Of a DNA stretch of 64,000 nt, positions 1-12,261 are shown piece after piece. Below the pieces are notes generated by a model. That model searched no databases and had not been told where the DNA came from. It was given only the letters and a program-made list of their open reading frames with translations. Position numbers and translations under genes: made by a program. The stretch is taken from contig NZ_CP031148.1 in assembly GCF_003342675.1 (NCBI RefSeq), positions 124,001 to 188,000 on the forward strand, in the 5' to 3' direction. Within the stretch, counting starts at the first letter, position 1. Each line of letters begins with the position of its first letter. This DNA is from Haloplanus rubicundus. GTDB taxonomy: Archaea; Halobacteriota; Halobacteria; Halobacteriales; Haloferacaceae.

Positions 1-1821
1 ACCCCGACTGAGGCGGGTAACTTGCCCGAATCCACTCACGAGTTACCTACCCCTTCGGAGCGAGCCGCAGAGTTCGACCGAACGTTTCCTAATCGGTCAT
101 CGCTTCCGCTCACTCGACGCCACGGCCGCCGCCTGCGACGCTCGCTCGTCGAGGTCGAGTATATCACCCGGACGACCGACACGGTGTCTCCGATGGAAGA
201 CTCGCAATCGGTAAATGAGGTTCGTCGGATCGACCCGCTGACCTGGGGCGCGGCCGTCGAGGACTTGCTTGAATCGCACGAACGAATGCGGAATACGACG
301 CTGAATTTCAAACACGACGACGGGACCGAGTGGTCGCGTCCGTCTGAAAATCGTTGGACAGAGGGCTATCAGAAACGCTACTTCGCGCAGATGAAAGGCT
401 GGCTCCGTGAACTGACCGGTGGAACCCGGCCGAGTGGTGGGGAAACAGAACCGTCGTATGCAAATCCGACGATCTGCCTCATCACTCGGTCGGCATCCAG
501 TACGCCGGATGGTGACCGGCTCGCCCCAACTGATCACGACGCGGCACTCGCTGACTCTTGGTCGGACGTGTATCATACGCTCCGAAACGTCATGCGGTCG
601 CTCGGCTTCGAACTCGGCGAAGACTGGCAGTACGACCGCCGGCAGGAACCCCACACCGGAAAGCGAGGATCGCACGGGACGAATACCTGCTACGGTCACG
701 AACACATCGTCTTGGTCGTCGACGGCTCGATCACGCCGGGCGCCCTTCGGAAAGTCGTCGAGAAACACGTCGACGCCTGCGAACCGGCCGGCCCCGACGC
801 CCACGATCTCGACGTACCGAACTGGGACGCAAACCCCGATGCCGTCGGAACAGTCGAGTGCTTCGATCCCGACGACGTGGAGGATATCGCCGCATACGTG
901 GCGTCGTACTGTTCCATCCAGCCGACGGACCTGCTCGAACGGAGTACGGAGTACCAAGCGTGGGCGGCTGTCAAACACGCGACGAACACGCGCACGATCT
1001 CGCGCTCGGTCGCGGCGAAACACGCGGCGAAAGCTGACCGCTGTCGACAGCGGGCCGAAGATCCGAAAACGGAACAGGAACACGATCACGGGGGAGAGGT
1101 CGTGAAAGCGGCCGACGGCGCCCACCATCACGTAGAATGTGCTGAGTGTGGGTCGGCGCACGATATACCTCAAGAGACGCTGTCTCGCGCCCGACTCGAC
1201 GCTGACAAAGGTCACGATGGCGACCTACCCCCGCGCGGCGGCCACGCCGAGATTGATGATCAAGAAGAGGACGATCAGTCGCGTCAAGAGGAACTGCGCG
1301 AGCGATGGCCTTCGGCTGACTCCGCGGCGACGTTCGGTGAATCGCTGAAACGAACTCGGGTTCGTTCACACATTCGCCGAATTCTGGAACACGAACCGTC
1401 GATTACTGCGCCTCGTCTCGCTGGTCGTATCGGTGAGCCGCCCGATCTCGTCGAGGACCTGCTCGAAGAGGAGCGCCGTGGGACCGATCCGGATGAAGTG
1501 GTCGGCTTCGAGAATCCATCCGAACCGTCGTGGAACCTGACGAGTGTCGAGGTGAACGGTGAGGAGCATACTGTCGCCTGCGATGGCGGGGGTCCCGAAA
1601 TGATCTGCGTCAGAAAGCCGTGGGAAAAGATTCGGCGTGAGACGAAGCTCGGAAGGGAGGACGCTGATCGAACGAAGTGGCGATGTGGAAAGTGCAACTT
1701 TGCGACCTACGATCCAGATACGATGGCCGGACACCTCGTCGAATGCCTCAACTGTTGGCGTCATCTCGATCTCGAAATCATTGATGACGTGCTGCTCGTA
1801 GACCGGCCTCCACGCTCCTGA
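1..1821 (+). CDS. Rolling-circle replication initiator (haloarchaeal RepA/HUH type), 5' partial
   Basis: This protein nicks and joins one strand to start rolling-circle replication of the circular viral genome. A His-Glu-His metal-binding motif lies at 697-705 inside Cys-Tyr-Gly-His-Glu-His followed by hydrophobic residues. A Tyr-x3-Tyr pair lies at 895-909 (YVASY), the place of the catalytic tyrosine motif. A conserved ATNTR-type segment follows, as in haloarchaeal plasmid and pleolipovirus Rep proteins. CxxC pairs and a C-terminal Cys/His finger (about 1681-1770) suggest DNA binding. The frame has no stop between base 1 and the first possible start (TTG at 22), so the gene is probably cut by the edge. 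ATG at 193 is an alternative start but would lose coding-like sequence. Confidence 0.8.
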   Translation, partial: TPTEAGNLPESTHELPTPSERAAEFDRTFPNRSSLPLTRRHGRRLRRSLVEVEYITRTTDTVSPMEDSQSVNEVRRIDPLTWGAAVEDLLESHERMRNTTLNFKHDDGTEWSRPSENRWTEGYQKRYFAQMKGWLRELTGGTRPSGGETEPSYANPTICLITRSASSTPDGDRLAPTDHDAALADSWSDVYHTLRNVMRSLGFELGEDWQYDRRQEPHTGKRGSHGTNTCYGHEHIVLVVDGSITPGALRKVVEKHVDACEPAGPDAHDLDVPNWDANPDAVGTVECFDPDDVEDIAAYVASYCSIQPTDLLERSTEYQAWAAVKHATNTRTISRSVAAKHAAKADRCRQRAEDPKTEQEHDHGGEVVKAADGAHHHVECAECGSAHDIPQETLSRARLDADKGHDGDLPPRGGHAEIDDQEEDDQSRQEELRERWPSADSAATFGESLKRTRVRSHIRRILEHEPSITAPRLAGRIGEPPDLVEDLLEEERRGTDPDEVVGFENPSEPSWNLTSVEVNGEEHTVACDGGGPEMICVRKPWEKIRRETKLGREDADRTKWRCGKCNFATYDPDTMAGHLVECLNCWRHLDLEIIDDVLLVDRPPRS

Positions 1822-2635: not shown

Positions 2636-4114
2636 ATGAACCGATCTCGTATTGTCTCCGCGCTGCTCGCCTGCCTGCTCGTGACGGCTGGCGTTGCTGG
2701 CCCGTTGTCCCAACCGGCTCAGGCCCAATCGGTCACCGAGCAATGCAATCCGCTCGACCGTCAGGTTGCATTCCTCGTCAGTCCCCTGAAAGCGGGAGCC
2801 GAGGGTATTCTGTGCGTGGGAGATTACTTCAGTAATCCGCCCAGCATCGACGGCGGAGATGCTGAACAAACCAAGGTAGACATCTACTCGGAGGCGACGA
2901 CGATGAAGGCCGAAGAGGATGTTTACTTCAAGACTGTCGACAACTACCTCAACGACTCCGAAACGGTTGCTTGGAGTAAGGCACAGGTCGCAATTGCTGA
3001 GGCCTATCAGAACGGCTCGACCCAAGCAACGGCTCGGTATGAGGCTGAAAAGGCCATCGAGGAGTATTACGCTGTCAAACAGCGTAATCTCGCGTCTCGC
3101 TGGAATGTGCACGTTGATCGGGTTCAGTATCTCCACGACGCCGCTGAAAATGAGAGCGGCATCGATCAACCGAGGTTCTTCAGTCAGGACTTAGGCGCTG
3201 ACTACGATCTGATGTTCCAAAACGGGACCGTCACGCTGGTCAACGGGACCAGCATCGACGCCCGCGTTCTCCGTGGCACCTTCAGCGGAAACCCCGAGGA
3301 CACGGTTAGTCTGACGACGGACACGAATAACGGCTACTCGCCGGATCAAATCTACGTAGATGCCCCTACGTCCGCGTACAATCAGACAACCGCGATAGAC
3401 GCCGCCGGCTACACCGCTCGATTCGCGGAGATCGAGAATAAGCGGGATTCCCTCGTCGCTGAGGTTCAAACGTACGTCAATGCGACGTACGACGACTACG
3501 AGTCCGGCAACATCAACGCCTCCGACGTGATCTCGTCGCAGACTGCCATGTTCGAGTACGGGACTGTCGGCACTAATGAGTCGTCGTCGCTGTATGACGC
3601 TGTTGGTGCGCTTGCTCTCTCGGGCTACGATACGCCGAACCTGAACGGAACCGGCACGATGGACGTGCGCTATGATAATCAGACCTACACCGGTCTCGTC
3701 ATGGCTCACAACGTCCCCGGTGGCTCGTGGTCGGTGAACTCGACGTACAACACGTCGAATATCGACGGCCCTGTGTTCATCACAACGACTGACGGAACCA
3801 AGGTAGACATACCAGAGGGAGAGACCTTCACCATCGAGGCGATCCGCGCTCAAGATGGCTCGTCGATCTCGTCTGTCAACACCACAGTCAACAACTACAA
3901 AACTGCAAACGCGAGCGAACTGAAAGAAGTTCAGGAGCAACTAACAGCGCTTCGCGCCGAAATCGAGGAGCGTGAAACCTCCAGCGGAGCCGGTGGGGGC
4001 TCCGGCGGCATCGGTGGCAACACCATGCTAATCGTGCTGGCCGCTGTCGCCGCCGCCGCCATCGCCCTCGGCTCCCAGAACGGAGGTGGTCGTCAAGGTA
4101 GGGGCCGTCGATGA
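2636..4114 (+). CDS. VP4-like spike protein of pleolipovirus
   Basis: The major surface spike that binds and fuses with the host membrane. The 492-residue protein has an N-terminal signal peptide (residues 1-30, ending near QAQ), many N-x-S/T sequons suited to haloarchaeal N-glycosylation, and a coiled-coil stretch (about residues 425-450). A Gly/Ser-rich linker, one transmembrane helix (about 463-480) and a short basic tail follow. Signal peptide, ectodomain, coiled coil and C-terminal anchor in this order are the hallmark of pleolipovirus VP4. It follows the VP3-like gene and overlaps the next small gene by four bases (ATGA). Confidence 0.85.
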   Translation: MNRSRIVSALLACLLVTAGVAGPLSQPAQAQSVTEQCNPLDRQVAFLVSPLKAGAEGILCVGDYFSNPPSIDGGDAEQTKVDIYSEATTMKAEEDVYFKTVDNYLNDSETVAWSKAQVAIAEAYQNGSTQATARYEAEKAIEEYYAVKQRNLASRWNVHVDRVQYLHDAAENESGIDQPRFFSQDLGADYDLMFQNGTVTLVNGTSIDARVLRGTFSGNPEDTVSLTTDTNNGYSPDQIYVDAPTSAYNQTTAIDAAGYTARFAEIENKRDSLVAEVQTYVNATYDDYESGNINASDVISSQTAMFEYGTVGTNESSSLYDAVGALALSGYDTPNLNGTGTMDVRYDNQTYTGLVMAHNVPGGSWSVNSTYNTSNIDGPVFITTTDGTKVDIPEGETFTIEAIRAQDGSSISSVNTTVNNYKTANASELKEVQEQLTALRAEIEERETSSGAGGGSGGIGGNTMLIVLAAVAAAAIALGSQNGGGRQGRGRR

Positions 4115-4254
4115 TCTGGCTCTTGCTCCGCCCGAAACTGCTGATCGGCCTACTCGTGTTGGCCGCTGCCGGGGTGACTGCGCTCGGCGTCCCGGTCTAC
4201 GCGACCGTGGCCGATCTGCTCTCCGGGTTCGGAATCGACTGGCTACCGCTGTAA
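4111..4254 (+). CDS. Tiny two-helix membrane protein
   Basis: A 47-residue ORF starting with ATG inside the last codons of the spike gene (ATGA overlap), so it is translationally coupled to it. The product is almost entirely hydrophobic, with one helix at about residues 8-30 and a second amphipathic or hydrophobic stretch at 33-46. Tiny membrane ORFs downstream of the spike occur in this virus group and their roles are unknown. Conserved overlap and codon use comparable to its neighbours support it as a real gene. Confidence 0.6.
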   Translation: MIWLLLRPKLLIGLLVLAAAGVTALGVPVYATVADLLSGFGIDWLPL

Positions 4255-4271
4255 CATCACAACCTCCGTTT

Positions 4272-4850
4272 ATGAGACACGCAATTACCATGATCCTGAT
4301 ACTGAGTTGTATAGCCCCTACTGCGGCGCCTGTCGTCGCACAGGAGAACACGAACGCAACCGAGACGCCGGCGCCAACGACCACGGCCACGCCCTCGAAC
4401 TCGTCGGCTGCCCTCGTGATCGACAAGACCCTGCAGATCACCGAGTGGTCCTACCGCGGAGGGACGTTCGTCATCACGTTCCACTCCGACACCTACCAGT
4501 CGGTATCCCTGACTGCAGTCCCTGAATCGTCGAGTTCCGGCGAGTCGTCGGGAACGGTCAACTACAGAGAGCGGTTCGTCCAGCCCAACGCCGAGACGGT
4601 CGTCCGTATCGACGTTCCCAAGTCCGACGGTCGGGCGCGGGTCTGGATCTTCTCGTCTCGCTCCGCCGAGACTGGAACGGTTCACTATCTCGAAGCTGGC
4701 CGTTCGGCATCCCTGCTATCCGGTCCGTTCGACGGCTCGGACGTTCGAGACGGTGCCATCGGCGGCGCCTCCGGCGTCGGCTTCGCTGTTCTCTACGTCG
4801 TCGCCCGTGCCAAACTCGGCGCCGATCAACGAGGTGAGCGGCTGGCATGA
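4272..4850 (+). CDS. Secreted, membrane-anchored pleolipoviral protein, function unknown
   Basis: A 192-residue protein with a signal peptide (residues 1-23), then a Thr/Asn/Pro-rich low-complexity stretch (24-50). A beta-rich ectodomain follows (ITEWSYRGGTFVITF onward), then a C-terminal hydrophobic helix (about 165-182) and a short basic tail. The frame is open further upstream, but only this start gives a signal peptide and avoids overlap with the spike gene. The next gene overlaps its stop by four bases. It resembles secreted ORFs that follow the spike in betapleolipoviruses. A virion or host-surface role is an inference. Confidence 0.68.
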   Translation: MRHAITMILILSCIAPTAAPVVAQENTNATETPAPTTTATPSNSSAALVIDKTLQITEWSYRGGTFVITFHSDTYQSVSLTAVPESSSSGESSGTVNYRERFVQPNAETVVRIDVPKSDGRARVWIFSSRSAETGTVHYLEAGRSASLLSGPFDGSDVRDGAIGGASGVGFAVLYVVARAKLGADQRGERLA

Positions 4851-5902: not shown

Positions 5903-6057
5903 TGTCCGGCATCGAGGACGCGCTGATGCACGGTCTGATCGTCGCCTGCTTCGTGCTGTTTCTGACCGATACTGCGACGGCTGATGCTGCACTCGTCGCT
6001 GGCGGTTCTGCGCTCTCTATAGAAGCGTACTGGGAGGTGGTTCGATCCGATGCCTGA
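5902..6057 (+). CDS. Tiny two-helix membrane protein
   Basis: A 51-residue ORF starting on the last base of the preceding stop and running eight bases into the NTPase gene. It has two hydrophobic stretches (about 7-24 and 26-42). Coupling on both sides and codon use like the neighbours argue that it is expressed. No known family is recognised. Confidence 0.5.
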   Translation: MSGIEDALMHGLIVACFVLFLTDTATADAALVAGGSALSIEAYWEVVRSDA

Positions 6058-7012
6058 TCTGAACGAAGAACTGTTCACCGCGGCCAAGCTGTACGAACAG
6101 GTCGCTGGCGATCTCGACGGTGACCGGCGCCTGCTCGATCACGCCGGACTCCCCGTCGACGACAGTACGAGCAAACACCTGTCGTTTCTCGAATCCACAA
6201 TCGAGGAAGACTGGTCGTCGTCGAGACTTGCAGCTGCGTCAGAGGCGACGATTGCCTCGGGCGCAGCGTCCCGCGCAGTTAGCGAGGGCGACGCCACCGC
6301 GCTTTCCTATCTCGTCGGTGTGACCGAACGCGAACTCGACGGCTCGTCGCTCCGACTGCCGCTCCAACTGAACGCGGCGATGGACAACAATGACGCGACG
6401 GCCTTCATCGGCGGCGCCGGAAACCCGAACACCGGGAAGACGAACCTCGTCGCGCTGCTGGCCGAACTCCGACGGGCGACCGTCGACGATCTCCTGGTGG
6501 TCTCGAACTCGCGCAGTTGGCCCGGCACGGACGAACTCGTCACCAGCGCCCACGATCTCGCCGTGACCTGTCTCAAACACCGGGAGCGACCGAAGTTCGT
6601 TTTCATCGACGAAGGCTCGACGCACTTCGACGCGCGAACTCATAGCCGAGAGGTGGCCGTCCAGTTCACCCCGCTGGCGAAGCGGTTCGCCAAGATCGGC
6701 GTCGACGTGTTCGCCACGGTCGGCCACACCGGAAAAGACCTGCATCCTGAGGTGAAGCGTCTGCTCACGCTTGCGTTCTTCAAGACCGCAAAGAAGAGCG
6801 CCAACTTCTACGGAAACTGGCCTGCTGATGCTGATATGCCGACTGATCGGTTATTCGGTGGGACTGTCGAGGAACTCGAACCCGCGCTCAAAGAGCCTGA
6901 TCCCGACGACGCGGCGCCGTGGGCGTGGAATCTCGAAGCCGAACTATTCGCTCGGGATCTTGACTGGCCCGAACTGTTTGACCGACTACGAACCCGTGGC
7001 CCCGCCGACTAA
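6050..7012 (+). CDS. VP8-like P-loop NTPase of pleolipovirus
   Basis: A 320-residue predicted NTPase, the counterpart of VP8 in HRPV-type viruses. Walker A is GNPNTGKTN with the lysine at residue 130. Walker B is FVFIDEG with Asp187-Glu188. Such proteins are conserved in pleolipoviruses and are presumed to act in genome handling or packaging. The C-terminal 65 residues (RLFGGTVEELEPAL onward) recur as a separate copy at 8521-8718. The start overlaps the previous small ORF by eight bases, ending the structural operon. The stop is followed by an AT-rich intergenic region. Confidence 0.82.
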   Translation: MPDLNEELFTAAKLYEQVAGDLDGDRRLLDHAGLPVDDSTSKHLSFLESTIEEDWSSSRLAAASEATIASGAASRAVSEGDATALSYLVGVTERELDGSSLRLPLQLNAAMDNNDATAFIGGAGNPNTGKTNLVALLAELRRATVDDLLVVSNSRSWPGTDELVTSAHDLAVTCLKHRERPKFVFIDEGSTHFDARTHSREVAVQFTPLAKRFAKIGVDVFATVGHTGKDLHPEVKRLLTLAFFKTAKKSANFYGNWPADADMPTDRLFGGTVEELEPALKEPDPDDAAPWAWNLEAELFARDLDWPELFDRLRTRGPAD

Positions 7013-7275: not shown

Positions 7276-7683
7276 ATGCAACTGAAAGAACTATTCACCG
7301 ACGAATCGGCAGTCAGCCCGGTCATCGGCGTGATTTTGATGGTCGCGATTACCGTCATTCTCGCCGCTGTGATCGGCACCTTCGTGCTTGGCCTGGGCGA
7401 CCAGGTCAGCGAGAGCGCACCACAAGCCAGTTTCAGCTTCGATTTCAATGATAGCGACGGGGTGGATATCACTCATGAGGGTGGTGAGACGCTAGAGAAA
7501 GGCAATCTGAACGTCTCCAACTCATCCGCATCGGTCGCGATGAACTTCCCAGAAGACACGGTAACTGCTGGGGATACCGCCCAACACACAAATATCGCAC
7601 CATCCGGTGAAACGGTCCGTGTCATTTGGATCAATCCGGCTGGTGGCGGCACCAACACTATCGCTCGCGCGACGGCACCGTAA
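7276..7683 (+). CDS. Type IV pilin N-terminal domain protein carried by the provirus
   Basis: A 135-residue archaeal pilin/archaellin-like protein. The N-terminus has a short basic leader, the prepilin peptidase motif around Ser-Pro-Val, and the conserved hydrophobic domain (residues 14-40, [20 protein letters not shown]) typical of haloarchaeal PilA proteins. The rest is a short Ser/Thr/Asn-rich beta domain. Pilins are host surface genes and not part of the pleolipovirus core. It stands alone between the NTPase gene and a partial copy of that gene's end, so it looks like cargo. It could change host pili and affect adhesion or superinfection; that is an inference. Confidence 0.85.
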
Positions 7684-7730: not shown

Positions 7731-8519
7731 ATGAGTAGCTGGCCGCTCACCGAACAGTCCCTCGCGCGAACATACCAGTCCTCTTACGACGACGCCTACG
7801 AGTCCATCCTTGACTACCGACGCGTCCAGTCGTACCGACAGACACACCCGGATGCCAGCAACTACCACGTTTCGAAGGCGCTCGAACTCCCGCGCGGTCG
7901 GGTCCGCGCCTGGATGGATGGTGCGAAGCCCGACGCCCTCTCGGCCGTCAAGCGCGCGGAGGAGTTGGACTGGTTCGACGCTGACGCCACCGATCCGTCA
8001 GATCCACTTCTCGGTGCGTTCGTTAGGTTGCTCGCTGGGATTTACGCCGGCGGGTCGATCCGAACCTCAGGATGGACACCGCACTGGACGAGTGATGGTC
8101 CCATCGACGAAATCAGGCGGTCGCTTCGAACCCTGGGTATAGAGTACCGTCGTATCCACATCCATGATTCTCAGCGGGCGACCGAACTTGTTCCCAGCTC
8201 TGATGGCAGCCTTCTCGGGCGATCGCTTTTTGTTTTGGGTGCACCCATCGAGGATAAGAATAAATCCTCTGTTGATCAGCTTCCAGAGTATTTGTTTGAG
8301 CTTCCTCATTTGATTCAGCGAACTTTCGTTTATATTTATTTGACGTATAGGCAGAGCGGAAATCAGCGGACAATTAGTATTCAAGAGAACCGTAGTAAAT
8401 CATATCATAACAGTCTCGCAGATCTCATTACAGAGGTCGTTACTGACTCTAATAGCGTAACTGTCGGTGAAAATGGAATCTATGTTTCTGCAAGCGCTCG
8501 TGAAGAGTTGTCGCTTTGA
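7731..8519 (+). CDS. HTH protein with degenerate LAGLIDADG-like region
   Basis: A 262-residue protein of a common haloarchaeal family. The N-terminus contains an HTH (about residues 33-60: RQTHPDASNYHVSKALELP, then an arginine-rich helix). A segment like a homing-endonuclease core follows (about 86-102, AFVRLLAGIYAGGSI), with Gly-Gly where an endonuclease would have acidic residues, so catalysis is unlikely. The first half has haloarchaeal GC-rich codons. From about 8220 the gene turns AT-rich, which suggests a recombinant or recently exchanged 3' half. It may be a transcription regulator; its target is unknown. Confidence 0.68.
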   Translation: MSSWPLTEQSLARTYQSSYDDAYESILDYRRVQSYRQTHPDASNYHVSKALELPRGRVRAWMDGAKPDALSAVKRAEELDWFDADATDPSDPLLGAFVRLLAGIYAGGSIRTSGWTPHWTSDGPIDEIRRSLRTLGIEYRRIHIHDSQRATELVPSSDGSLLGRSLFVLGAPIEDKNKSSVDQLPEYLFELPHLIQRTFVYIYLTYRQSGNQRTISIQENRSKSYHNSLADLITEVVTDSNSVTVGENGIYVSASAREELSL

Positions 8520-8520
8520 G

Positions 8521-8718
8521 TATTGGCCTGCTGATGTAAATATACCGGCTACTCGGCTATTCGGAGGGACTGTCGAGGAACTCGAACCGGCACTCGAAGA
8601 GCCTGATCCCAACGATGCGGCGCCGTGGGAGTGGAATCTCGAAGCCGAACTGTTCGCTCGTGATCTTGACTGGCCCGAATTGCTTGACCGTTTGCGGAGC
8701 CGAAACCTTGCGGAATAG
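8521..8718 (+). pseudogene. Duplicated 3' end of the VP8-like NTPase gene
   Basis: About 198 bases encode a near copy of the last 65 residues of the NTPase at 6050-7012 (shared RLFGGTVEELEPAL, then NLEAELFARDLDWPEL). It lacks the P-loop part. By eye the nucleotide match to about 6817-7014 is above 80 percent. It begins directly after the stop of the preceding HTH gene. An in-frame ATG at 8467 inside that gene would give an 83-residue product, so translation is possible. It is best read as a truncated paralogue left by recombination. Confidence 0.8.
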
Positions 8719-8843
8719 TCCACCGCCTGTAGAGTTACACGTTTTCGATGGTTGCATCACCTCAAGCTTATTTTTCTCCGCGAGGCTGGCATAATGATAA
8801 CTTCCCAATAGATTTTCAGGGGTTGACTTCTTTTTGCAGGTAT

Positions 8844-9752
8844 ATGGAGCTTGACAAACAGATCATGGAGCGTCTCGCGTTTGCGAAGAGTCTCCAGCAA
8901 GAAGCCGTTCAAAAATCCAACAAACCGCAGCCAATGGCGGCTTCTTCAGTCTTATCTTTCCATGATTCTGTGGAAATTTTCTTCTATACATCTGCAGAAT
9001 ATTTGGGAATCAATGCAGACCCGAATCATATAACAGAATATTTTGAAGAAATAAAGAGAGAAATTGGAGAGGACTTAGTGGGAAAAGCGGGTGTAAAGAG
9101 ACTAAACAAGGTGAGAAAAAATCTCAAACACAAAGCATCATTACCCGATGAGTTGGAAATAAATGCATTTCAGTCCACAGTATCTAATTTTTTCGTTGAA
9201 AATACGCCCAAAATATTTGATGTGGAATATTCAGAGGTTGGGGTAGAACATTTAGTCAAATTCGACAGAACACGGGAATCGCTTGTTAGGGCGAGTGAGA
9301 AATACAAATTTGGGAATATAAAAGAAGCAATGGGTCATCTGGCGCTTGCACATAACGACTTGCTTTCTGAACACCAGAATGCCACAATCAGAGAGATAGA
9401 ATATCGATCATTTCCGGATTACCCAGGCTTCGAATTTGAGGGAGACCGGTTTGGAAAATTGGACCAGTTTTTTGAAGACCTTAGTGAAGCAATAATGTAT
9501 GTTAGTTTAGGTATAGATTACCGACGATACTCACGTTTTAAACATTTAACTCCTTCAATAGTAATCAACAACGATATCGACGAATATCAAAAATATCGCC
9601 CTTATTTTGAAAATTATAAGTTCGATGAAATTGGTCCAGAGGAATATCACTTCTGTAAAGATTTTGTCGTTGAACTCTCATTGTCTCTACAAGAAGCGCC
9701 CTTTGAAGAGTACGACGGCTCTGAATTCACACCAGATGAATCAGTTCTGTAA
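8844..9752 (+). CDS. AT-rich accessory protein, possible HEPN-like fold
   Basis: A 302-residue soluble, largely helical protein with codon use (AAA, ATA, TTT, GAA) unlike anything else in the window, so it is recently acquired. Residues RKNLKH (about codon 92-97 from this start) fit the R-x4-H spacing of HEPN ribonuclease motifs. The preceding part is a helix-rich region with conserved Phe/His. That similarity is short and unproven. ATG at 8844 is preferred over 8748 because the upstream 32 codons are poor and a T-rich TATA-like site (8765-8775) precedes it. Its position at the cargo end of a provirus suits a defence or superinfection-immunity gene. Confidence 0.62.
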   Translation: MELDKQIMERLAFAKSLQQEAVQKSNKPQPMAASSVLSFHDSVEIFFYTSAEYLGINADPNHITEYFEEIKREIGEDLVGKAGVKRLNKVRKNLKHKASLPDELEINAFQSTVSNFFVENTPKIFDVEYSEVGVEHLVKFDRTRESLVRASEKYKFGNIKEAMGHLALAHNDLLSEHQNATIREIEYRSFPDYPGFEFEGDRFGKLDQFFEDLSEAIMYVSLGIDYRRYSRFKHLTPSIVINNDIDEYQKYRPYFENYKFDEIGPEEYHFCKDFVVELSLSLQEAPFEEYDGSEFTPDESVL

Positions 9753-9769
9753 TTAGGCTCCACTGAGAT

Positions 9770-10060
9770 TTAACCAACTGACCAACGAGGCAAATGCCCC
9801 GCGTCGAGATCGCCACGCAGATACGCCAGTCCCCACGTCGAGATCTCGTACATACTGCTTCCTTCAACAACCGGAGCAACTAATTCGCGCTTAACCAACT
9901 GCTCGCATCGCTGCCTGATGTATCCCTCATCGGCATCCAACTGCTGAAATCGAGGGTCGGAAGCCATCGACGCTGGAGCACCCCACGATTCTTCATCGAG
10001 ATATTCTAAAATCCGCTCGTCGACCGGGTACATCCATCTCCCCATTCGACGAATCGGCAT
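9770..10060 (-). CDS. Winged-helix repressor-like protein
   Basis: A 96-residue protein with a winged-helix layout. It has an N-terminal basic stretch, helices with DERILEYLDEE, a recognition-type helix around YIRQRCEQLVKRELV and a wing ending in a Tyr-Glu-Ile strand. It resembles the PhiH1 repressor fold and lies three bases downstream of a clearer PhiH1-type repressor gene, in the same operon. The pair may have arisen by duplication. It may modulate lysogeny control. Confidence 0.7.
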   Translation of the reverse strand: MPIRRMGRWMYPVDERILEYLDEESWGAPASMASDPRFQQLDADEGYIRQRCEQLVKRELVAPVVEGSSMYEISTWGLAYLRGDLDAGHLPRWSVG

Positions 10061-10063
10061 GGA

Positions 10064-10375
10064 TTAGGCTTGGTCTTGTGCCTCGCCAGCGTCGTTAGTA
10101 TCCGATACCCCTGCATTTCCATTCTCCGCGGCGTTGTATTCCCCTTTTAGATATTCTTGGCCTTCATCCGTGATCGTGTAGAGGCCCCTGCCGACCGCTT
10201 TTAGTAAGCCGTGCTTTGCCAACTTCCGGCACCTCTTCGCGACGTATGCCCCGCTGTACGGAATGCGTTCGTGTTCTCCGATATCGGATGGTGCCATGAA
10301 TTCCTCCTCACTCTCCACGAAGAGTTCGAGGATTCGTTCATCGAGGAGTACCATCCACTTCCCCGATTTTCTCAT
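10064..10375 (-). CDS. PhiH1-type phage repressor (winged helix)
   Basis: A 103-residue protein that closely resembles the haloarchaeal phage PhiH1 repressor. It starts MRKSGKWMVLLDERILELF and has a helix-turn-helix with AKRCRKLAKHGLL and a wing ending YTITDEGQEYLKGEY. The acidic tail is variable. An AT-rich TATA box (about 10398-10406, read on the minus strand) lies about 25 bases before the ATG, so the mRNA is probably leaderless. Direct repeats upstream are candidate operators. It is the likely lysogeny repressor of the provirus, controlling the divergent integrase-side genes. Confidence 0.82.
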   Translation of the reverse strand: MRKSGKWMVLLDERILELFVESEEEFMAPSDIGEHERIPYSGAYVAKRCRKLAKHGLLKAVGRGLYTITDEGQEYLKGEYNAAENGNAGVSDTNDAGEAQDQA

Positions 10376-10754: not shown

Positions 10755-10885
10755 CGATTCCATACGAAGTGTGGGGGTCGCTCTGCTTCCTGCTCGGATT
10801 CCTCGGCCGCGCGTCGTGGGATCGCTTCGGTGACGATCACGACGACGACCAGGACGAAGAGGAAACGGAGGAGGATTCGGAGTGA
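10751..10885 (+). CDS. Small membrane/acidic-tail protein upstream of integrase
   Basis: A 44-residue ORF coupled by four-base overlaps to the zinc-ribbon gene before it (ATGA) and the integrase after it (GTGA). The N-terminal half is hydrophobic (EVWGSLCFLLGFLG) and the C-terminal half almost purely Asp/Glu. The tight coupling in the integrase operon supports that it is expressed. Its function is unknown; it may correspond to one of the SNJ2 integrase-associated ORFs. Confidence 0.55.
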   Translation: MTIPYEVWGSLCFLLGFLGRASWDRFGDDHDDDQDEEETEEDSE

Positions 10886-11931
10886 GCGATCTCGATCCGC
10901 TTTCGCCCGAGGAGGGTGTTCGACTGTACCTCGACGCGAAGAAGGATGATCTCGCTGCGGAGACGCTGAAAAGTCAGGAGTACCGCCTCAATGCGTTCGT
11001 TCAATGGTGCAACGAGGAGGGCATCGAGAACCTGAACGAACTCTCTGGTCGTGACGTGTACGCCTACCGTGTGTGGCGTCGGGAAGGCCAAGGCGAAGGC
11101 CGTGAATCGGTTGCCCCGATCACGCTTCGTGGACAGCTGGCAACGGCGCGCGCCTTCCTCCGGTTCTGTGGTGATATCGAGGCGGTCCCTCCCGATCTCT
11201 ACGACCGCGTTCCTCTGCCGACTCTGAGCAACGGGGAAGAGGTGAGCGACAGTACGCTCGACCCCGATCATGTCGCGGCGATCCTCGACTACCTGAGTCA
11301 GTTCAAGTACGCGACCCGCGATCACTTGATCGTCCTACTCGGCTGGCACACCGGTGCCCGCCTCGGCGGCCTTCGCGGGCTCGACCTGGGCGACGTGGAT
11401 CTCGACGGCGACCATCCCCGAGTTTCGGGACCGGCCGTCCATTTCGTCCACCGTCCGGAAACCGGGACGCCGCTGAAAAACAAGGACAAGAGTACGCGCT
11501 GGAATCGAATCAGCGAGTACGTCGCTGAGGTCATCCGCGACTACCTCAAGGAAACCCGTGATGATGTGACCGACGAGTACGGACGGGAGCCGCTATTCAC
11601 GACGCGAAACGGTCGTCCAGTTCCGTCGACGATTCGGGAGTCGCTCTATCGAGTGACGCGTCCCTGCTGGAGAAACGAACCGTGCCCGCATGATCGGGAT
11701 ATCGAGGACTGTGAAGCGACGAATATACAGAAGGCCACCAGGTGCCCTTCGTCTCGATCACCTCACGATCTCCGTAGTGGCCGAGTCACGTTCTACCGTC
11801 GACAGAACGTCCCTCGACGGATCGTCGAGGATCGGCTGAACGCGAGCGAGAACATTCTGGATAAGCACTATGATCGTCGTAGCGAGCCTGAAAAGGCCGA
11901 ACAGCGTTCCGAATATCTCCCCGACTTCTGA
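10882..11931 (+). CDS. int: SNJ2-type tyrosine integrase
   Basis: A 349-residue site-specific recombinase that integrates and excises the provirus. The N-terminal SAM-like core-binding domain (residues 1-110) begins with the phage-integrase pattern (LSPEEGVRLYLDAKKDD). In the catalytic domain, Arg160 (TGARLGGLRG), His295 and Arg298 (SPHDLRSG) and Tyr330 (DKHYD) fit the R...HxxR...Y set. A Cys-containing insertion before HDLR is typical of the haloarchaeal SNJ2 group. GTG start overlaps the previous stop. The gene points at the att region. Confidence 0.92.
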   Translation: MSDLDPLSPEEGVRLYLDAKKDDLAAETLKSQEYRLNAFVQWCNEEGIENLNELSGRDVYAYRVWRREGQGEGRESVAPITLRGQLATARAFLRFCGDIEAVPPDLYDRVPLPTLSNGEEVSDSTLDPDHVAAILDYLSQFKYATRDHLIVLLGWHTGARLGGLRGLDLGDVDLDGDHPRVSGPAVHFVHRPETGTPLKNKDKSTRWNRISEYVAEVIRDYLKETRDDVTDEYGREPLFTTRNGRPVPSTIRESLYRVTRPCWRNEPCPHDRDIEDCEATNIQKATRCPSSRSPHDLRSGRVTFYRRQNVPRRIVEDRLNASENILDKHYDRRSEPEKAEQRSEYLPDF

Positions 11932-12261
11932 CCGATGACACACGACAAAATAGTCCGCGCAACAGACGGCGGCGCGCAGTACCGGCAGTGCCCACCCCAC
12001 TTTTTCCTCGGTCGCTTCGTCGCCGGCGCAGTGCGGCGGCTGCCCGAGGGACCTGCGGTCCCTCGCTGCTCCCTCGGGAAAGCTTGGGGTAAAAGACCGC
12101 AAGAAGGATTCGAACGAGAGAAACGCGGAGCGAAGCGACGAGTTTCGCGTTGTTCGAATCCGCCAAGGACCCACAGTTCCACAGTCACTTCGTTATCCAC
12201 ACCCCGCCGTCCTGCCGTCAGTCGACGCCGGCCGTGGTCGGCGGCGGTCACAAAATCCGTC
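11932..12261. other. Provirus-chromosome junction with inverted repeats, probable att region
   Basis: 330 bases with no supported gene. A perfect hairpin (CGAGGGACC at 12045-12053 and GGTCCCTCG at 12057-12065) may end the integrase transcript. Further right, GGATTCGAAC (12106-12115) and GTTCGAATCC (12152-12161) form an inverted pair with the consensus of a tRNA T-arm, the usual 3'-end target of such integrases. Neither copy is part of a complete tRNA here: the T-stems do not pair. The likely reading is an attachment site or scars of repeated integration. Confidence 0.5.

Follow-up and report, generated by a model that had tools for sequence, protein, structure and literature searches.

The 64-kb window (the whole stretch of DNA that was analysed) contains, across its left edge, an alphapleolipovirus-like provirus of ~13 kb (about 13.3 kb when measured from the putative att sites). 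The genes for Rep, a 4-TM protein, the spike, the ATPase and the integrase are found in the canonical order. The Rep protein (DUF1424, Pfam 1.2e-15) is encoded at 22..1821 (+ strand), the spike protein at 2636..4114 (+) shows 39.7% identity to VP4 of Halorubrum pleomorphic virus 1, and the VP8-type ATPase at 6050..7012 (+) is 72% identical to that of Humcor2 over 76% of the length and 92% identical to that of a congener provirus (G281). Two winged helix-turn-helix (wHTH) regulator genes, at 9770..10060 and 10064..10375 (both on the - strand), are conserved in the sister proviruses and are followed by a XerC/D-like tyrosine integrase gene at 10882..11931 (+; Pfam Phage_integrase, 5.1e-9). The 11-bp sequence GTTCGAATCCG at 12152..12162 (+) is the putative attR; its second copy, the putative attL, is found at window position -1166 (G000:C2, about 122834), within an intron-containing tRNA-like gene, in its T arm and 3' end. 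Judged from this short repeat, the two copies are likely to mark the provirus attachment site, and the homology to the G281 provirus starts at window position -884. The tRNA-like gene, which is not among the ARAGORN calls, shows by eye a CAT anticodon.

The gene at 8844..9752 (+) is an intact ORF of 302 amino acids, with its stop at 9752. The ATG at 8844 is to be taken as the start, since the relatives, which come from several phyla, align from residue ~2–3 of that reading; an alternative ATG at 8748 adds 32 residues that have no counterpart in them. The GC content of the gene is 0.387 (38.7%), the lowest of the element (0.53–0.63 for the other provirus genes), and the kilobase 9001–10000 has the lowest GC across the window (0.418), as expected from the initial annotation, which had described the gene as very AT-rich and compositionally foreign. 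The same annotation had placed it at the cargo end, and indeed the ATPase and pilin genes lie on one side and the two wHTH genes with the integrase on the other. Directly upstream, at 8482..8718 (+), there is a partial second copy of the ATPase gene's 3' end (71% to ATPase residues 242–319 at the protein level, and 86.8% identical in DNA to the same gene end in G281). Such a scar suggests recombination at the ATPase end as the way in which cargo is exchanged. ATPase tail fragments are also present in another genome (G068) and, in G267, downstream of the integrase (L101), which suggests recurrent recombination here.

The only R-x4-H in the protein is RKNLKH, residues 91–96. By itself it is weak evidence, because shuffling the protein yields R-x4-H in 35% of the copies (R-x4-6-H in 72%). 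With the query only, nothing useful came from Pfam, PADLOC, the PDB (by phmmer) or phage records, nor from scanning genome and viral contigs for patterns; relatives were retrieved by alignment-based scans, which succeeded in both genome contigs (29, with Actinomycetota, Bacteroidota, Chloroflexota and WOR-3 among them) and viral contigs (nine), and by tblastn and profile-guided scans, which added two other haloarchaea and plasmid records of Streptomyces, Embleya, Parabacteroides and Paraburkholderia. The conservation alignment consists of 38 sequences from haloarchaea, Actinomycetota, Bacteroidota, Chloroflexota and WOR-3, most of them 25–32% identical to the query and the most distant one 21%.

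Six columns are invariant in all 38 sequences: D41, E44, R91, K95, H96, and F116. Rx4-6H is the catalytic motif of HEPN proteins (PMC3710099), and both its Arg and its His are thus kept throughout the family, together with the upstream acidic residues that are characteristic of the superfamily. R91-x3-K95-H96 (9114..9131, +) is the predicted RNase catalytic motif, and D41-x2-E44 (HDxxE; 8964..8975, +) is the probable acidic part of the active site. The 29 genome contigs (L011–L039) were found with a SILSFHDAVE-like pattern; the R-x4-H stretch was not part of it, so the conservation of R-x4-H in them is not circular. The residue that follows R91 is V in 25 of the 38 rows, N in 7, K in 2, R in 2, and T in 1; N, D or H is typical of HEPN at this position, though not obligatory.

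The AlphaFold2 model, built with the alignment of the relatives, has a pLDDT of 89.7 and a pTM of 0.82, with pLDDT values of 94–98 in the N-terminal HEPN domain (residues 1–125; 8844..9218, +). Helices extend over residues 5–25, 31–54, 63–74 (a short insert), 81–97, and 103–125, and are followed by a further helical part with a beta hairpin. The first part is thus an all-helical domain arranged in the way canonical for HEPN: a pair of hairpins, an insert separating helices 2 and 3, the HDxxE residues in helix 2, and the R-x4-H motif at the end of the penultimate helix (81–97, helix 4). In the Foldseek search against the PDB, the best match is the HEPN protein 2hsb (probability 1.00, TM 0.80 by target length, rmsd 2.8, 125 columns), and the next ranks are mostly HEPN toxins of HEPN-MNT systems (7ae6, 7bxo, 5yep, 6m6u), along with 1ufb (TM 0.75). 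We infer that the 2hsb match belongs to residues 1–125, as the 125 columns, gaps included, cover a target of 126 amino acids, and the gapped C-terminal part could not give such coverage. The E-values are weak (best 0.64, none below 0.001), which is usual when a short helical domain sits within a longer query. No convincing match was obtained in the viral fold library. The initial annotation had proposed that RKNLKH is compatible with the spacing of HEPN RNases, naming structure prediction with Foldseek and motif conservation among homologues as the checks; both came out in favor of the proposal, with Arg and His sharing one helix in the canonical position and R91, K95 and H96 without exception in the alignment.

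The C-terminal helical domain (residues 128–302; 9225..9749, +) contains the small beta hairpin and the conserved G-I-D-Y..RF..LTP residues. It has at most a weak local match to DUF4145, and its model from the single sequence (pLDDT 36) was not used. A tandem arrangement, with this domain as a second, degenerate HEPN, found no support in the profile comparison with the N-terminal domain. The C-terminal domain (~150 residues) probably serves in sensing or in regulation.

At the sequence level, the family is not matched by any Pfam, NCBIfam or PADLOC model, in line with the earlier statement that it was not a recognized one. Below the Pfam thresholds, HEPN_Swt1 (best E 0.016) and HEPN (best E 0.041) appear in 4 of the 38 members each, and no other family matches more than one; hits to DUF3014 and YfdX (E 0.04–0.06) were regarded as noise. 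Neither Pfam nor the profile comparisons linked the family significantly to a known HEPN family, and hhalign of the family against small DUF4145 and PF05168 alignments gave nothing. Membership of the HEPN superfamily (Pfam clan CL0291) is therefore based on fold plus motif, by which divergent HEPN families have been defined (PMC3710099). The failure of the three model collections to recognize the family makes it a new HEPN family with a C-terminal domain of its own. It shares with the superfamily the helix-hairpin bundle, in which an insert parts helices 2 and 3, the R-x4-H ending the penultimate helix, the upstream acidic residues, and neighborhoods with restriction-modification (R-M) and Abi genes, and it is unlike the other families in having mostly V after the Arg, an invariant K before the His, and the additional ~150-residue domain.

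The gene is rare in haloarchaea: the family is present in 3 of 391 genomes, and in 1 of 12 within the genus. All three copies are ~12–25 points lower in GC than their surroundings. This patchy presence, together with the low GC, indicates separate lateral arrivals. In the tree, the window copy pairs with that of genome G039, a join that may be false, both being long branches. One relative (L080:8250-9164) stands alone beside ftsZ and a nusG-like gene, with a GC of 0.425 in a locus of 0.67, and no mobile-element gene was noticed there.

The neighborhoods of the relatives frequently contain R-M genes. In five Bacteroidota loci (L018, L022, L024, L025, L029) the relative is part of a type I R-M operon with HsdM, HsdS and HsdR. 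In L006, L031, L036, L037 and the haloarchaeal L081 it directly follows an Eco57I/N6-type methylase gene, and L012 has a methylase gene at a distance of two ORFs. The set of genes in L006 comprises an SNF2 helicase, the Eco57I methylase and the HEPN protein. L008 has two Abi_C genes directly upstream of the relative. In a PADLOC scan of 106 neighbors, the type I restriction, specificity and methylase models lead; the mad2 and mad5 tallies are probably cross-matches of type I methylase and specificity subunits, and no claim of MADS is made. Most actinobacterial copies have no obvious defense partner and the tallies are raw, without a background rate, so the R-M link holds strongly for Bacteroidota and one haloarchaeon and not for the whole family. 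In the haloarchaeal locus (L081:8218-15793) the genes are, in order, a PHP-AAA/SMC-like ATPase (857 aa), an Eco57I/TaqI_C methylase (1299 aa) and the HEPN relative, an operon that looks like a type IIG or BREX-related defense operon.

Coupling of HEPN proteins to R-M has been described (PMC3710099). The closest parallel is the anticodon nuclease PrrC, a HEPN RNase whose gene lies within a type I hsd operon, as in the five Bacteroidota loci; the window gene is unlike it in having no adjoining R-M system. Moreover, PrrC, like RloC, differs in architecture: PrrC carries an N-terminal ABC ATPase, which is missing in the present family, where the HEPN domain is at the N-terminus of the 302 residues. 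The HEPN back-up effectors of BREX and BREX-related systems (PMC12839542) are similar as stand-alone HEPN RNases located beside N6-methylase/helicase systems, which L006 resembles, while the window copy differs by being alone in a virus. With respect to AbiJ, Abi_C (PF14355) is absent from the Pfam families that match the 38 members at E ≤ 1.

The position occupied by the gene in the provirus is a slot of changing content. Nineteen sister proviruses keep the ATPase–slot–integrase backbone, the integrase often being preceded by one or two wHTH genes, and the content of the slot varies and tends to be AT-rich. It includes a GmrSD type IV restriction gene (L099:4759-6741, with a RelE-like small ORF recognized by eye at 4004-4288), SLFN_AlbA_2 (Schlafen-AlbA; L088), a trypsin-like protease (L095), and a weak PIN match (L100). 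In the known virus Halfgib1 the slot holds a Dcm methylase and a TPR protein. The G281 provirus, despite its 92% identical ATPase, has cargo entirely different from that of the window, and the HEPN gene is present neither in the 19 sister proviruses nor in the described pleolipoviruses. The best reading is that the HEPN gene is horizontally transferred cargo, acquired at the 3' end of the ATPase gene.

Taken together, we consider, with a probability of about 0.6, that the gene product is a stand-alone HEPN endoribonuclease, from a family with no model in the searched databases, acting as an abortive-infection or superinfection-blocking effector; its RNase activity, dimer, trigger, target and benefit to the provirus are what we infer within this reading. 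An antiviral role is probable from the context, i.e. the R-M operons, the Abi neighbors and a slot common to defense-type genes; next to the window copy, no R-M or Abi gene was identified. Residues 1–125 would form the HEPN bundle and probably dimerize, as other HEPN RNases do, with R91 and H96, along with D41 and E44, from two protomers composing a metal-independent active site, while the C-terminal ~150 residues would sense a signal or restrain the HEPN domain. The effector would be silent in the lysogen and switched on by a competing virus, and, once activated, it would cut RNA (tRNA, mRNA or rRNA), stopping growth or virus production. For the R-M-linked relatives, the trigger is perhaps a disturbance of the R-M enzyme or disabled restriction, by analogy with PrrC; for the virus-borne copy it would have to be a different one. 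A more specific version is rather doubtful: that a family of HEPN RNases guarding R-M systems, a second line in case restriction is disabled, has moved out of the operon and acts by itself in a membrane-vesicle virus of archaea, where it belongs to an interchangeable anti-rival cargo at one fixed pleolipovirus slot.

HEPN proteins are also classic toxins of toxin-antitoxin systems, and the gene could instead encode an addiction toxin that maintains the provirus stably, restrained by a neighboring wHTH protein or an unseen small antitoxin, with virus protection secondary or absent. The fold matches bring the protein close to HEPN-MNT pairs (HepT/MntA; 7ae6, 7bxo, 5yep), which are the best represented among them and have the R-x4-H at a helix end, and the wHTH gene at 10064-10375 weakly matches AbiEi_4 (E 0.068). 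However, the protein is twice the size of those toxins and has no tyrosine after the motif (HxY), and an HEPN-MNT pair was rejected, as no MNT nucleotidyltransferase was found, adjoining the gene or elsewhere, among the provirus genes scanned with Pfam. The wHTH genes are conserved backbone in sister proviruses that have no HEPN gene, the relatives have no conserved small partner gene, and the copy in L002 is inserted by itself, with ftsZ on one side and a nusG-resembling gene on the other. We regard this explanation as unlikely.

It is still less probable that the protein is a non-catalytic, RNA- or nucleotide-binding member of the HEPN fold, or a HEPN-like fold with another function, as the missing profile link to catalytic HEPN families and the weak Foldseek E-values would allow. 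Inactive HEPN proteins are devoid of the motif (PMC3710099), whereas the present family keeps R-x4-H, and to retain R, H and the acidic residues so strictly across such a large divergence (~25–32% identity) is what catalysis demands. Least probable of all is an RNase that serves the virus itself, by cleaving host RNA or by regulating viral or host transcripts in induction or replication: the gene is virus-borne and cargo may directly serve its carrier, but the relatives are mostly found in chromosomes, plasmids and R-M operons, and the absence of the gene from the sister proviruses and described pleolipoviruses makes it dispensable for the virus life cycle.

The proposal of the initial annotation is supported at the level of predicted fold and motif. 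HEPN effectors are already known as a kind; what is notable here is the carrier, with its archaeal pleolipovirus cargo slot, and the R-M-linked relatives. If the endoribonuclease reading is true, it adds a HEPN family that extends across Bacteria and Archaea, is tied to R-M operons and has been missed by Pfam, NCBIfam and PADLOC. The fixed hypervariable slot downstream of the pleolipovirus ATPase gene could then be mined for archaeal defense genes, as bacterial prophage hotspots were. The words defense, toxin and cargo are all absent from the main text of a 2023 family-wide survey of pleolipoviruses.

Two of the slots hold further candidates. In L086 (3780-6256) a PCNA-like protein of 247 residues, recognized by eye, is found next to a 577-residue protein that has no Pfam match, both genes at 42% GC, a possible replication- or clamp-linked defense pair. 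The slot of G185 (L094:4708-6905) comprises two AT-rich genes of 354 and 378 aa without Pfam matches, a candidate defense module. In the window provirus, a 262-residue protein with no Pfam match is encoded at 7731-8519, between the pilin gene and the ATPase scar, with a moderately low GC of 0.54. The gene at 7276-7683 encodes an archaeal type IV pilin-like protein with a leader, which has a 43% relative at the equivalent place in the G106 provirus (L093); a virus-borne pilin could change adhesion or superinfection.
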